A program made the position numbers and the translations under genes. From the NCBI RefSeq assembly GCF_017795745.1, contig NZ_CP059067.1, positions 558,001 through 622,000 of the forward strand: a stretch of 64,000 bases of DNA. The letters are read 5' to 3'. Under the pieces are notes generated by a model. It worked only from the letters and a program-made list of their open reading frames with translations, did no database searches and was not told where the DNA came from. Shown piece after piece: positions 31-37,932 of the stretch. This stretch comes from Rhizobacter sp. AJA081-3 (GTDB taxonomy: Bacteria > Pseudomonadota > Gammaproteobacteria > Burkholderiales > Burkholderiaceae_C). Position 1 is the first letter of the stretch. Every line of letters begins with the position of its first letter.

Positions 31-59
31 GTGACATCTTGTTACGGCGCGGCTACAGT
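31..59 (+). promoter_or_regulatory. Candidate sigma-70 promoter of the riboswitch-protease transcript
   Basis: GTGACA at 31-36 (5/6 to TTGACA) and TACAGT at 54-59 are separated by exactly 17 bases. Transcription would start near 65-67, which is the 5' edge of the c-di-GMP aptamer. The position relative to the aptamer is what makes this more than a chance match. Seen in sequence; activity is inferred. Confidence 0.6.
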
Positions 60-61
60 CG

Positions 62-145
62 TCGTTTGTCGCAAACCTCGTGAAAGCGAGGGACGCAAAG
101 CCTCCGGCCTACAGCAGCAATGCCAGGGTAGCGGGGCTGCCGGAT
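62..145 (+). promoter_or_regulatory. Cyclic di-GMP-I (GEMM-I) riboswitch aptamer
   Basis: The GEMM-I core is present in order and spacing: GCAAACC (71-77), a CCTCG/CGAGG stem closed by a GAAA-type loop (76-91), GGGACGCAAAGCC (90-102), TCCGGCCTA (103-111) and GGTAGCGGGG (127-136) followed by CTGCC. These blocks match the family's conserved positions, including the tetraloop and its receptor helix. The aptamer lies in the leader of the secreted protease gene at 187. A hairpin (143-158) and an RBS-burying hairpin (161-181) follow, so control is probably at translation. Confidence 0.92.
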
Positions 146-160
146 CGCCTTCGCGATCTG

Positions 161-181
161 GCCTCGAACCCCCACCGAGGC
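161..181 (+). promoter_or_regulatory. RBS-sequestering hairpin (riboswitch expression platform)
   Basis: GCCTCG (161-166) pairs perfectly with CGAGGC (176-181) around a 9-base C-rich loop. The 3' arm contains GAGG (177-180), the only Shine-Dalgarno-like sequence, 6 bases before the ATG at 187. A second perfect hairpin, GATCGC/GCGATC, sits at 143-158 directly after the aptamer and could compete with the aptamer's 3' strand. No T-run follows either hairpin, so translational control fits better than termination. Confidence 0.65.
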
Positions 182-186
182 ATTCC

Positions 187-2115
187 ATGAAACACCGTTT
201 CCGACCGTGCGCGCTCGCGCTCGCCGCCGCAGCCTGCCTGGCCGCTCCCGCTCTGGCCTTCCAGCGTCCCGACACAGCCGATGTGTTGCGCGCAGCGATC
301 GCCGCGGCGCCTGTCACCGACCGCCTGATCGTCAAGTACCGCGATGCTGCCGCGGCGAACTCGCCGCGATCGCAGTTCGCGGCGCAAGTGGCGGCCAATC
401 GCCAAGGCGTCACGATCCGCCTGTTGCGACAGACCCTCTCCGGCGCGCATGTCTACAAGCTCGGCCGCTCGATGAGCCACGACGAGGCGGATGTGCTCGC
501 GGCGAGCCTGCGCGGCGGCGATGCCGCCGTCGAGTACGCCGAGCCCGACCGAATCCTGCAGCCGTTGATCGTGCCGGCCGATCCGATGTACACGAAACAA
601 TGGGCGCTGTCGGACGCGATCGGGGGCATCCGCGCACCGGCGGCCTGGGACAAGTCCAGCGGCGCCGGCATCGTCGTCGCAGTGGTCGACACCGGCGTGC
701 GGCCGCATGCGGACCTCGTCGCCAACCTGCTGCCGGGCTACGACTTCGTGGTCGACCCCTTCGTTTCGAACGACAACACGGCACGCGATGCCGATGCATC
801 CGACCCCGGCGATGCGGTCAGCGCGGGCCTTTGCGGGCCGGGCACGCCAGCGCGCAGCAGCTCGTGGCACGGCACCCACGTCGCGGGCATCGTCGGCGCG
901 GTCGCCGGCAACGGCACCGGCGTGGTCGGTGCCGCCTTCGGCGCCAAGGTCCAGTCGCTGCGCGCGCTCGGCCGCTGCGGCGGCTACACCTCCGACATCG
1001 CCGATGCGATCGTCTGGGCTGCGGGCGTGGCCGTCACCGGGCTGCCGGCCAATCCGACGCCGGCGCGCGTGATCAGCCTGTCGCTCGGTGGTACCGGCAG
1101 CTGCGACAGGACGTCGCAGGCCGCCATCACGCAGGCGCGGGCCAAGGGCGCCGTGGTGGTGGTGGCCGCGGGTAATGACAACGCCGACGCGAGCCGCACC
1201 ACGCCGGCCAACTGCAGCGGCGTCGTCGCCGTGGCGGCGACCAACGCGGCAGGCGGCAAGGCCTCGTACTCGAACACCGGTGCCAACGTCACGCTGGCCG
1301 CGCCGGGCGGCGACGCCGGTAGCGGCATCGTCTCGACGCTCAATGCCGGCACCACCACACCTGGCGCCGACGCCTATGCGGCCTACGCCGGCACGTCGAT
1401 GGCGACGCCCCACGTCAGCGCCGTGGCCGCGCTGATGCTGTCGGTGAACAAGAGCCTGACGCCGGATCAGGTGGGCACGATGCTGAAGGCCAGTGCGCGC
1501 GCCTTCCCGGCAGCGTGCAGCGGTTGCGGCAGCGGCATCGTCGATGCCCATGCGGCGGTGGCCCTGGCAATGGCGGCGGTGCCTGCACCGAAGCCGGCCC
1601 CCGCGCCGGCGCCGGCGCCCGCTCCGAAGCCCGCACCGACCCCTTCGCCCAAGCCCGCGCCGGCACCTGCCCCTGCGCCGGCCCCCAAGCCCGCTCCGGT
1701 TCCCGCACCGGCCCCTGCACCGAAGCCCGCACCCGCCCCTGCACCCGCGCCCTCGCCGGTGCCCACCGTGGTCGAGGCAGAGTCCAACGACACCTTCGCG
1801 AAAGCACAGGCCATCGCCGGTACGCCCACGGTGATCTCGGGCACGCTCGCCAGCACGGCCGACGTCGACTTCTATCGCATCACCATCGCGGCCGGTCGCC
1901 GCGTCGTGGCCACGCTGCCGGGCAACACCGCCGTCGGTTTCGGTCTCGGCGTCTACCTGTCGGCAACCCAGCCGCTCGGGCAGATCCAGGCGAGCCCGGG
2001 GCAGGCGCTGTCGTTCACCATCAGCAACAGCGGCACCACGGCCGTCACGGTGGCCTTGCGCGTCTCGCGCGCGTCTGGCGGCACCGCAAGCTACAAGCTC
2101 AGCCTCGCGCCTTGA
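187..2115 (+). CDS. Secreted S8 family (subtilisin-like) serine protease with PPC domain
   Basis: A 642-residue exported endopeptidase. The start at 187 is chosen because it gives a clean Sec signal peptide (about residues 1-24, ending ALA) and follows the GAGG site; the frame stays open upstream but runs through the riboswitch. After an N-terminal propeptide/inhibitor-like stretch comes the peptidase domain with the full triad: Asp168 (DTG), His228 (HGTHVAG) and Ser404 (GTSMATPH). A linker of Ala-Pro-Lys repeats (bases about 1579-1764) leads to a C-terminal pre-peptidase C-terminal (PPC) beta-domain beginning at ESNDT. Family knowledge: an extracellular protease. Regulation by c-di-GMP is inferred from the leader. 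Confidence 0.93.
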   Translation: MKHRFRPCALALAAAACLAAPALAFQRPDTADVLRAAIAAAPVTDRLIVKYRDAAAANSPRSQFAAQVAANRQGVTIRLLRQTLSGAHVYKLGRSMSHDEADVLAASLRGGDAAVEYAEPDRILQPLIVPADPMYTKQWALSDAIGGIRAPAAWDKSSGAGIVVAVVDTGVRPHADLVANLLPGYDFVVDPFVSNDNTARDADASDPGDAVSAGLCGPGTPARSSSWHGTHVAGIVGAVAGNGTGVVGAAFGAKVQSLRALGRCGGYTSDIADAIVWAAGVAVTGLPANPTPARVISLSLGGTGSCDRTSQAAITQARAKGAVVVVAAGNDNADASRTTPANCSGVVAVAATNAAGGKASYSNTGANVTLAAPGGDAGSGIVSTLNAGTTTPGADAYAAYAGTSMATPHVSAVAALMLSVNKSLTPDQVGTMLKASARAFPAACSGCGSGIVDAHAAVALAMAAVPAPKPAPAPAPAPAPKPAPTPSPKPAPAPAPAPAPKPAPVPAPAPAPKPAPAPAPAPSPVPTVVEAESNDTFAKAQAIAGTPTVISGTLASTADVDFYRITIAAGRRVVATLPGNTAVGFGLGVYLSATQPLGQIQASPGQALSFTISNSGTTAVTVALRVSRASGGTASYKLSLAP

Positions 2116-34902: not shown

Positions 34903-36656
34903 TCGGCCGTCTCCAGGTGCGAGGCCGGGTCGTCGCGCCCGGTGATCTGCCGAGCCACCGAGAGCTCGGCATCGAGGTCGAAGGCGGGCTCGAAGTACAG
35001 CGACTTCAGGTGCCGCTCATAGGCCGGGCGGAACTTGGCAATGGTGTCGCGCAGCGGGTTGCAGGCCGTCGCACCCAGCCCGCAGTGCGTGGCGCCGTGC
35101 ATCAGCTTGTCGAGCTCGTAGAGCACGTCGACGTCGTGGCGCGAGCCATGGCCCTGCGCGAGCTTGTCCATGCGCTTGACGACCAGCGCCGTGCCCACGC
35201 GGCAGGGCGTGCAGAAGCCGCAGCTCTCGTGGGCGAAGAAGTGCGCGAAGTTGCGCGCCACCTCGAACATGTCGCGCGAGCGGTCGAACACCATGAAGGC
35301 GCCGGCGGTGGGCACGTCCTCGAAGGCGATGCGCCGGCCGAACTCGAAGGCCGACAGGCACACGCCCGAGGGCCCGCCGACCTGCACGGCCTGCGTGTCG
35401 CGCGCGCCGCAGTCCTCGAGGATGCGGCCGATGCGCGTGCCGAAGGGGTACTCGTACAGGCCCGGCCGCTCGCAGTCGCCCGACACCGAATGGATTTTCG
35501 TGCCGGTGGACTTGGGCGTGCCGATCGCCGCCCACCAGTCGCCGCCCTGCACCGCGATGTGCGCCGCGGCGCAGAAGGTCTCGACGTTGTTCACCGTGGT
35601 CGGCCGGCCCATGTAGCCCTGCTGCACCGGGAAGGGCGGGCGGATGCGTGGCGTGCCGCGCTTGCCTTCGAGCGACTCGATCAGCGAGGACTCCTCACCG
35701 CACACGTAGGCACCTGCGCCGAGGTGGATGTCGATGTCGAAGTCGAAGCCGTCATGGCCCTGGATGGCCGTGCCCAGCAGATGCGCATCGCGGCGCCGCT
35801 GCAGCGTCTCGCGCAGCGGCTCCAGCAGGTAGCGGTACTCGCCGCGCAGGTAGACCAGGCCCTGCTTCGCGCCGATGGCGGCAGCAGCGATCGTCATGCC
35901 TTCGAACACCAGGTCGGCGTGGCGGCTCAGCAGCACGCGGTCCTTGAAGGTGCCGGGCTCGCCCTCGTCGGCATTGCACACGACCACCCGTTCGCTGCCC
36001 GCCGCCTCGCGGCACAGCGCCCACTTGGTGCCGGTGGTGAAGCCCGCGCCGCCGCGGCCGCGCAGGTTGGAACGTTTCATCTCCTCGAGCATGGCCGCGG
36101 GGCCGCGCGCCAGCGCGGCGGCCAGCGCCTGCCCGGCGGCAATCGGCTGGCCCAGCAGCACGTCGGCGCGGCGCACGTTGTCGTCGATGCGGAACCATTC
36201 GGCCGGCCACGACGAGGCCGGCGTATCCGATTCGATGAGCTCGGCGATGCGGGCCACACGTTGCGCATCGAGGCGAGTGATCACGAGCTGGTGGTTGATG
36301 AGCAGCGCCGGGCCCTGGTCGCACAGGCCGGTGCAGGACGTGGCCGCCACGCTGACGCGGCCGTCGGTTCGCATCTCGCCGGGCTTGACGCGCAAGCGCT
36401 CGCACAACTGGGCCATCAGCGCTTCGCTGCCGAGCAGGCGGTCGGTGATGTTGTCGCTGAACAGCACCCGCCAGCGCCCCACGGGCTGCAGGTGGAAGAA
36501 GCGATAGAAGCTGGCCACCCCCTCGACCTGCGCCAGCGTCAGCCCGAGCTCGCGCGCCAGGTCGGCCAGCAGCGGGCGCGGCAGCCAGCCGTGCTGCTCC
36601 TGCGCTTCGCGCAGCAGCTGGACCAGCGAGTTCCGGTGACGGGGGAAGTGCAGCAT
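34899..36656 (-). CDS. hoxF: HoxF: hydrogenase diaphorase, NAD- and FMN-binding subunit
   Basis: 585 residues; ATG 36656 begins a NuoE-like domain, followed by a NuoF-like domain. NuoF part: RGRGGAGFTTGTKW (NADH/FMN), GAGAYVCGEESSLIESLEGKR, and the 4Fe-4S ligands ESCGFCTPC ... HCGLGATAC. In the NuoE part only the second Cys pair of the 2Fe-2S site remains (SCTGLCDQG); the first pair is absent. No clear Shine-Dalgarno precedes the start, so a start a few codons upstream cannot be excluded. First gene of hoxFUYHW; hoxI is missing. Confidence 0.94.
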   Translation of the reverse strand: MLHFPRHRNSLVQLLREAQEQHGWLPRPLLADLARELGLTLAQVEGVASFYRFFHLQPVGRWRVLFSDNITDRLLGSEALMAQLCERLRVKPGEMRTDGRVSVAATSCTGLCDQGPALLINHQLVITRLDAQRVARIAELIESDTPASSWPAEWFRIDDNVRRADVLLGQPIAAGQALAAALARGPAAMLEEMKRSNLRGRGGAGFTTGTKWALCREAAGSERVVVCNADEGEPGTFKDRVLLSRHADLVFEGMTIAAAAIGAKQGLVYLRGEYRYLLEPLRETLQRRRDAHLLGTAIQGHDGFDFDIDIHLGAGAYVCGEESSLIESLEGKRGTPRIRPPFPVQQGYMGRPTTVNNVETFCAAAHIAVQGGDWWAAIGTPKSTGTKIHSVSGDCERPGLYEYPFGTRIGRILEDCGARDTQAVQVGGPSGVCLSAFEFGRRIAFEDVPTAGAFMVFDRSRDMFEVARNFAHFFAHESCGFCTPCRVGTALVVKRMDKLAQGHGSRHDVDVLYELDKLMHGATHCGLGATACNPLRDTIAKFRPAYERHLKSLYFEPAFDLDAELSVARQITGRDDPASHLETAE

Positions 36657-36694
36657 GGGCACGACGATGGTGTGGCCGGTGCGTTGGATCAGAC

Positions 36695-36710
36695 TTGATT
36701 TGCGGCAAAT
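36695..36710. promoter_or_regulatory. Inverted repeat / possible FNR-like half-conserved site between hoxF and the diguanylate cyclase gene
   Basis: TTGAT-TTGC-GGCAA (36695-36708) keeps one perfect FNR half-site and three of five bases in the other. It overlaps a perfect 13-bp palindrome, ATTTGC-G-GCAAAT (36698-36710). It lies 39 bases upstream of the hoxF start. The spacing leaves very little leader for a class II arrangement, so the regulator is uncertain. Confidence 0.3.
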
Positions 36711-36792
36711 TCGCAAGGCTCGGCTCAAGTCGCCGCCCCGATGGCCGAAACTTGACGAATCGGCGGCGCTTCCCCAGCCGCATTCGAGTGTC

Positions 36793-37932
36793 GTGACCGA
36801 TCCAGCCGCCATTCCCCCAGCAAGGCTCAGCCCGTCGGTCGAGGCCCCTGCATCGCGCGTGCTCAGCGGCCATCTCCGGCGGGCGATGCGCACGCAGGTC
36901 ATGGTGATTGCGTTCTACCTGGTCGACGCACTCCTGATGGCCGGCTATGCCGCGCACGGAGCGCTTCCTCCCGTCGCCCCGCTGGCCTTCGGCGCTGCGG
37001 GCATCGGATTGACGGGCTTGTTTGCCATCATGGTGCGCATGGGCCTTCACCGGCGAATGGGTGGCGCGCTCTTCACGACCCTCCAGTTGCTGAGCGCGTG
37101 CAGCCTGATGCTCGTCACGGCGGCCGCGCTGCCGCAGATCGGCGTGCTGCTGTTGCTGACCCTGATCATCGCCCTGGCCACGGCCGCGCTGCAATTGCCG
37201 CTCCGGCACGTGTTGGTGGTGACAGGCCTCATTGCGGCCTTCTCGCTGGCCCTGCTGTTGTTCAACGGCGTCCGGTTCGGCCTGCCACTGGACGATGGGT
37301 GGTTGCGTCTGCTCACTGGCCTGTGGTTCGCCGTGGTGCTGGCCAAGATCGTGGCCATCAACCTGATCGGTGCAGAGATGCGCAAGGCCCTCTCGGCGAG
37401 CAACTCCCGGCTCGAGGCCGCACTGGCCCAGGTGCGCGAACTGTCGGAGCGGGACGAACTGACCGGCCTGCAGAACCGGCGCAGCATCCTGGCGCATCTG
37501 GCAGAAGAGAGGGCGCGGTTTTCGCGCGGTGGCCTGGCATTCGGGGTGGCGATTCTCGACATCGATCACTTCAAGCGGGTCAACGACCGGCATGGCCATG
37601 CCATGGGCGATGAGGTGCTGCGTGCGTTTGCGAAGATCGTGACCGACAAGCTGCGCAGTACCGATCGCATCGCGCGGTATGGCGGCGAGGAGTTTCTGCT
37701 GCTGCTGACCAACAGCCCCGAAGCCCATTCGGTGCAGCTCGCCGTGGAGCGTCTGCGGTGCGCCGTGGAGGAATTCCCCTGGTCCGAGCTCGCTGCGGAG
37801 CTCAAGCTCACGTGTTCGATCGGGGTGACGATGAGCTGTGCGGGGGAAGGTGTGGCCGAGATGCTCGAGCGTGCCGATGCGGCGCTGTACCGCGCCAAGT
37901 CGGACGGGCGCAACACCGTGCGCCTTGGATGA
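36793..37932 (+). CDS. Membrane-bound diguanylate cyclase (GGDEF)
   Basis: 379 residues from GTG 36793 (a downstream Met at MRTQVM is an alternative start). About six hydrophobic helices occupy residues 30-190. A short coiled stretch (LEAALAQVREL) leads to a GGDEF domain with RDELTGLQNRRS, DIDHFKRVND and the active-site GGEEF (residues 297-301). An RSTD inhibitory site precedes GGEEF by five residues, so product inhibition is expected. It makes c-di-GMP, the ligand of the riboswitch at 62-145, although no direct link is shown. Divergent from hoxF. Confidence 0.9.
   Translation: MTDPAAIPPARLSPSVEAPASRVLSGHLRRAMRTQVMVIAFYLVDALLMAGYAAHGALPPVAPLAFGAAGIGLTGLFAIMVRMGLHRRMGGALFTTLQLLSACSLMLVTAAALPQIGVLLLLTLIIALATAALQLPLRHVLVVTGLIAAFSLALLLFNGVRFGLPLDDGWLRLLTGLWFAVVLAKIVAINLIGAEMRKALSASNSRLEAALAQVRELSERDELTGLQNRRSILAHLAEERARFSRGGLAFGVAILDIDHFKRVNDRHGHAMGDEVLRAFAKIVTDKLRSTDRIARYGGEEFLLLLTNSPEAHSVQLAVERLRCAVEEFPWSELAAELKLTCSIGVTMSCAGEGVAEMLERADAALYRAKSDGRNTVRLG

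Follow-up and report, generated by a model that had tools for sequence, protein, structure and literature searches.

A C20 variant of the GEMM-I riboswitch ahead of a secreted S8 protease gene in Burkholderiales

The riboswitch leader and the genes around it

The stretch of DNA analysed here (64,000 nucleotides from Rhizobacter sp. AJA081-3; hereafter the window) opens with a structured leader and a gene for a secreted S8 subtilase, both on the forward strand. The gene (positions 187–2115, 642 aa) matches PF00082 with an E-value of 9.1e-55, which bears out the subtilisin named in the original prediction for this locus, and it begins with what we judged by eye to be a signal peptide. A longer reading of the gene from GTG at position 31 was ruled out because the base pairs of the aptamer covary and a signal-peptide-like start lies at 187.

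Ahead of the gene, cmscan identified a GEMM-I (c-di-GMP-I) aptamer at 60–144 (+), matching Rfam family RF01051 over the full length of the model with 71.3 bits (gathering threshold 35) and an E-value of 5.5e-12. The residues contacting c-di-GMP are given in PMC4744006 as G20, A47 and C92 (Vc2 numbering), and the first of these is equated with G11 of Cd1 in PMC9262584. Two of the contacts are retained in the window, as A97 (+) and C140. The A47 column is invariant in alignments A1 (22 leaders) and A2 (18 leaders), C92 is invariant across our leader alignments, and both are unchanged, together with the GAAA loop, in 22 of 22 leaders of A1. Across a set of 32 leaders, P2 and P3 are paired in 97.9% and 99.1% of cells, respectively, with two-sided changes in P2. 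The remaining contact is altered: model position 11 in the cmscan alignment, equivalent to Vc2 G20, is C at position 70 (+; hereafter C20), contradicting the claim that all conserved blocks of GEMM-I are present. This base is neither the G that marks the c-di-GMP-selective Vc2 type nor the A that is carried by natural GEMM-Ib switches and marks that cGAMP type. A covariance search with RF01051, proposed as the check on a predicted c-di-GMP riboswitch, thus gave a significant match and the family assignment stood; with C in place of the G20 contact, ordinary c-di-GMP sensing does not follow from it, and for the same reason we file the aptamer, on sequence grounds, as a variant of RF01051 and not as an ordinary Vc2-type sensor.

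The promoter that had been read by eye (GTGACA-N17-TACAGT) is also there, i.e., a promoter-like −35 element (GTGACA, 31–36) and −10 element (TACAGT, 54–59) 17 nt apart on the forward strand. TACAGT is found 10–15 nt 5′ of base 20 in 12 of 87 GEMM-I matches, the window included, with 0.5 expected from simple shuffles. The transcript would probably start near 65–67; if this promoter is the right one, transcription would cover about four bases ahead of C20, leaving the window with no 5′ strand for P1. Absence of P1 is not claimed here as a hallmark of the lineage, given that a crude helix count did not separate these leaders from other GEMM-I. The Shine-Dalgarno (SD) sequence GAGG (177–180, +) lies 6 nt before the ATG at 187 and is the sole good one that we saw by eye ahead of it, part of a GAGGC that is invariant in 22 of 22 A1 leaders and located, as predicted, within the 3′ arm of a GCCTCG/CGAGGC hairpin.

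The GGDEF cyclase reported 36 kb away in the window was confirmed (ORF 36655–37932), but a nearer GGDEF gene had been missed: it lies immediately 5′ of the riboswitch on the same strand (G000:C1:557375-557842; to about position 1382 in L001), ends about 60 nt before the window start and reads Asp at the Hypr position. We rejected it as a conserved neighbour, as an upstream motif search detected it at three loci from two genomes (L001, L048 and L100) and at none of the other 40 loci, some of which have little upstream DNA. The genome also holds a second GEMM-I (L045, G000:C1:322751-322841), which is followed by a short ORF encoding about 80 aa.

Cytosine at base 20 and the S8 protease lineage

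Searching with RF01051 in 149 genomes (the host's own and those of relatives, 51 of which had a match) gave 87 matches. All listed matches were read at base 20, with G in 80, C in four and A in three; two of the four C20 aptamers are those of the window and its genus mate. Adding 86 sequences from a scan of 399 family genomes with model R1 (25 loci plus 60 stretches holding 61 matches, the best-scoring of a longer list) raised the set to 173 GEMM-I sequences, with G in 154, C in 14 and A in five after the readings were reconciled by hand. Since R1 was built from C20 leaders, C20 is over-represented in its share, and the 87 RF01051 matches give the fairer figure for its frequency. A C20 pattern scan of the GTDB species collection found at least 31 loci, which is a lower bound (the pattern fixes other bases too) and gives no denominator. 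Another subtype, with GCACACC and UCGCAAAG, makes up 52 of the 173 matches (18 unparsed); by our own Vc2 mapping it has C at base 24 with U at base 43 instead of A with A, so that both sides of the internal loop of P2 are changed. L071 and L210 are C20 aptamers of this subtype, the former with a chemotaxis receptor gene downstream.

An S8 match (tblastn, with the window protease as query) lies downstream of 23 of the 31 C20 loci, including L117, where the match was weak and S8 was confirmed by Pfam. Eight loci had no S8 match, and the seven of these scanned with Pfam (all but L112) precede genes for a ComP-like pilin, PilM, a SPOR protein, an M23 peptidase and two Ig-like proteins, with one lacking any match. 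The leader before the ComP-like minor pilin, in Aquabacterium (L104, 4861–4993, −; 96.7 bits), is a C20 leader with a similar platform. Within 2600 nt downstream, we found an S8 match, not necessarily in the first gene, for at least 43 of the 173 GEMM-I matches (12 C20 and 31 G20, with '?' rows assigned to G by eye), a lower bound because many loci end sooner. An S8 orthologue search (E up to 1e-100) yielded 90 matches in 65 of the 399 family genomes; in the family scan, 18 of these orthologues had the leader in front (12 C20, 6 G20), and the model found none before the remaining 72 at E up to 0.1. That the same leader precedes S8 genes of many relatives supports its reading as a translational switch, and would link secreted proteolysis to dinucleotide signalling in Burkholderiales. 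Among the titles and abstract openings searched (most subscription papers lie outside that search), we found no published report of a GEMM-I before an S8 protease or of a natural C20. G20 GEMM-I also stand before more distant S8 proteases (L004, L009, L015, L016, L137, L140 and others; about 31–35% identity in these six), and the association with S8 may have had more than one origin.

We placed these proteases in a tree of S8 domains with 103 rows, namely the 90 S8 matches and 13 pattern-scan rows picked for C20 (from the 31 C20 loci, L109, L113, L117 and the eight non-S8 loci were excluded, and seven more were treated as the same contigs as family-scan loci). All 31 leader-bearing proteins fell on one side of a single branch, with an SH-aLRT support of 89 (below the starred level of 95) from a quick method with a midpoint root. 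C20 (25 rows) needs four changes in this tree, at least three of them forced by well supported branches, and G20 (6 rows) appears in three places among the C20 rows. The 25:6 ratio is biased because the 13 pattern-scan rows were chosen as C20; the family scan alone has 12 C20 and 6 G20. The same platform is common to C20 and G20 leaders, and C20 is kept in several genera of the one S8 lineage. Read from these sequences, base 20 has flipped repeatedly between C and G within one regulon as A47, C92 and the remainder of the aptamer stayed, a pattern that speaks against decay and makes one ligand at altered affinity likelier than a change of ligand. Matched C20 and G20 sisters with the same gene and platform are thereby material for studying how a binding pocket is tuned for affinity or specificity in nature.

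The expression platform and its predicted sign of control

Both hairpins described in the original prediction are present in the sequence, GATCGC/GCGATC at 143–148/153–158 and GCCTCG/CGAGGC at 161–166/176–181, although the extent of the former had been understated. A stem search from C92 and covariation in 32 leaders indicate that it can run from C92 (140) to 161 (+) with nine pairs (140–148 with 153–161, one of them G-U), the outer two being C92 (140) with G161 and C93 (141) with G160; we call this hairpin 1. Hairpin 2 (161–181, +), also supported by covariation, hides the SD in the minimum-energy fold. G161 is thus contested, as it pairs either with C140, i.e., C92, in hairpin 1 or with C181, immediately 3′ of the SD, in hairpin 2. 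A platform that uses the ligand-contact base itself as a switch strand would be a simple translational design.

In the 32 leaders (26 C20 and 6 G20, in an alignment fitted to the model and with some rows closely related), 97.7% of cells are paired, compared with 89.1% in shuffles, and 14 pairs show a two-sided change, a count that none of 500 shuffles reached. Such changes occur in six of the eight counted pairs of hairpin 1 and two of the five counted pairs of hairpin 2; the two outer C-G pairs of hairpin 1 are invariant, so that the contested pairs themselves carry no covariation evidence. Hairpin 2 is paired in 98.1% of cells, putting the SD within a conserved helix. A model-free MAFFT alignment of 18 leaders also had two-sided changes in four pairs of hairpin 1 and one of hairpin 2. 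When gapless stems were extended from C92, the best one terminated on the second G of GGCCT, adjoining the anti-SD, in all 32 leaders; stems of at least six pairs from C92 exist in 24 of these 32, compared with 5 of 82 other GEMM-I leaders. The window leader (66–210) is more stable than its shuffles (z = −2.24; 3 of 200 equally low). L101, whose platform does not align, was kept in A1 and excluded from the folding tests and from alignments A2 and A4; L092, L094 and L114 were excluded from A2, and L117 and L104 from the leader sets. Taken together, the Rfam match, the covarying hairpins and the SD in hairpin 2 give good support to a compact switch that controls a secreted subtilisin at the level of translation.

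We considered two other exchanges. In one, P2 (CCTCG/CGAGG in the window) would trade strands with the SD hairpin; this was ruled out because the P2 sequence differs in relatives. The other, in which the 3′ strand of P3 (GGGGC) pairs with the anti-SD, was seen in the SD-open folds of L098, L106, L113 and L115 and is absent in the window; on these folds it is a minor possibility.

Folding gave a consistent picture of how C92 affects the SD. With the aptamer folded, the mean cost of opening the SD in 32 leaders is 4.4 kcal/mol when C92 is free and 8.6 kcal/mol when it is held, the cost rising in all 32 (mean rise 4.2 kcal/mol) and going from 4.1 to 9.5 kcal/mol in the window leader. When positions were held one by one, the mean rise was 4.2 kcal/mol for C92, 2.4 for C93 and 2.2 for G91, and about 0.5 or less for the remaining eight of the C92-2 to C92+8 range (more than 1 in up to 6 of 32 leaders); holding base 20 changed the cost by zero. 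The C92-GG pair has a mean probability of 0.40 in the free ensemble (0.77 in the window), and the open state of L222 forms without it. These values come from a folding model without tertiary contacts or coaxial stacking, in which holding C92 probes competition and not binding. Within this model, an exchange of the SD helix with an aptamer-dependent helix is favoured in 32 of 32 leaders and, because the effect of holding is local to C92 and its neighbours, ligand binding should favour a closed SD. None of 33 leaders had an open SD in its minimum-energy fold; opening it without ligand still costs about 4–5 kcal/mol, meaning that both states may be poorly translated.

The model thus predicts a translational OFF switch. 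Without ligand, G91, C92 and C93 (139–141) could pair with G160, G161 and C162, whereby hairpin 1 would invade the anti-SD strand and the SD hairpin would open more easily. With ligand bound, C92 would be taken by the ligand guanine and hairpin 1 would retract, leaving G161 to pair with C181 and hairpin 2 to hide the SD. A high signal would then mean less protease. The sign of control, said in the original prediction to be unreadable by eye, is in this sense predictable by folding, with OFF as the likelier sign.

Candidate ligands, alternative readings and known systems

We lean, with moderate confidence, towards a translational OFF switch on a secreted S8 protease, formed by a GEMM-I riboswitch that belongs to a separate lineage within Burkholderiales; its ligand would most likely be c-di-GMP, bound less tightly with C20. 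Genes for methyl-accepting chemotaxis proteins (MCPs), ComP-like pilins, PilM and SPOR proteins are usual kinds of c-di-GMP targets, and C20 aptamers also precede genes of all four kinds. PF00990 is matched 43 times in the genome, some matches being fragments of one domain; from these, 30 GGDEF loci were obtained, 29 of them readable at the Hypr position, with Asp in 28 and Asn in one. Ser at this position is the Hypr mark in GGDEF enzymes according to PMC6456294, and because no Hypr-type Ser occurs at the 29 readable sites, c-di-GMP is the likeliest ligand, probably at weaker affinity. Published mutants bear on how much weaker. PMC4744006 cites a G20 mutation of Vc2 as lowering c-di-GMP binding 30,000-fold, and describes the equivalent change in Vc1 as not fully eliminating binding, and PMC9049102 gives 0.011 nM versus 4900 nM for the double mutant G20A/C92U. 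For Cd1, binding is described in PMC9262584 as not lost in G11C and G11A, the G11 contact itself being neither confirmed nor excluded by its authors.

A bolder proposal, which we hold only tentatively, is that C20 GEMM-I form a naturally retuned subclass, in which the second base of the dinucleotide would be read by a different pairing (e.g., C-G Watson-Crick or protonated Hoogsteen), with a new ligand or an affinity far from that of Vc2, and in which base 20 flipped between C and G several times in one protease regulon. If true, the subclass would be a natural experiment in riboswitch retuning at a site tied to which cyclic dinucleotide GEMM-I reads. An outright change of specificity, with the C20 pocket reading another guanine-containing dinucleotide (e.g., cGAMP or linear pGpG) and not mainly c-di-GMP, seems unlikely to us. 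It would fit the account in PMC9262584 of base 20 as a factor in selecting between cyclic dinucleotides, the listing of a G20A GEMM-I as a c-AMP-GMP sensor (PMC11352751) and the selection of cGAMP by GEMM-Ib switches on the same scaffold (PMC6456294), as well as the persistence of C20 across several genera within a single S8 lineage and the invariance of C92, the reader of one guanine. However, the alternation of G20 and C20 within the same regulon fits a single ligand better, C20 also precedes unrelated genes of the usual c-di-GMP kinds, and the GGDEF sites read hold no Hypr Ser.

We think it more doubtful still that the switch is ON, i.e., that the ligand folds the aptamer and the leader is then better translated. 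Both ON and OFF switches occur in class I (PMC6366702), and coaxial stacking of the two hairpins, which the folding model leaves out, could reverse the balance; against this, holding C92 made the SD costlier to open in every one of the 32 leaders. Least credible to us is an aptamer that no longer binds, with the leader serving only as a structured, weak ribosome-binding site. A key contact base is indeed lost, and the SD is mostly sequestered whether or not C92 is held, but such a leader would sit poorly with A47, C92 and the GAAA loop being invariant in all 22 aligned leaders, with the near-complete pairing of P2 and P3 and the two-sided changes in P2, or with the exchange of G20 and C20 within the lineage.

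Compared with RF01051 switches of the Vc2/Cd1 type, the favoured OFF switch of the window shares P2 with its GAAA loop, P3, A47, C92 and the GCAAA and CGCAAAG blocks. It differs from them in having C at position 20, in a platform that contests C92 itself through a hairpin next to the anti-SD and, if the promoter is read correctly, probably in lacking the 5′ strand of P1. The GEMM-Ib (cGAMP) switches of Geobacter likewise carry a natural substitution of base 20 on the same scaffold, which is A20 there; by contrast, we found C20, in another lineage and with no Hypr cyclase among the sites read. For a protease controlled by a class I switch there is a precedent in C. difficile, where PMC6366702 describes zmpI as repressed by c-di-GMP. 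Its product, zmpI/PPEP-1, is likewise a secreted protease, albeit a zinc metalloprotease of a Gram-positive host and not an S8 protease. The class I switches of C. difficile act by transcription termination (PMC6366702), whereas the platform in the window looks translational.
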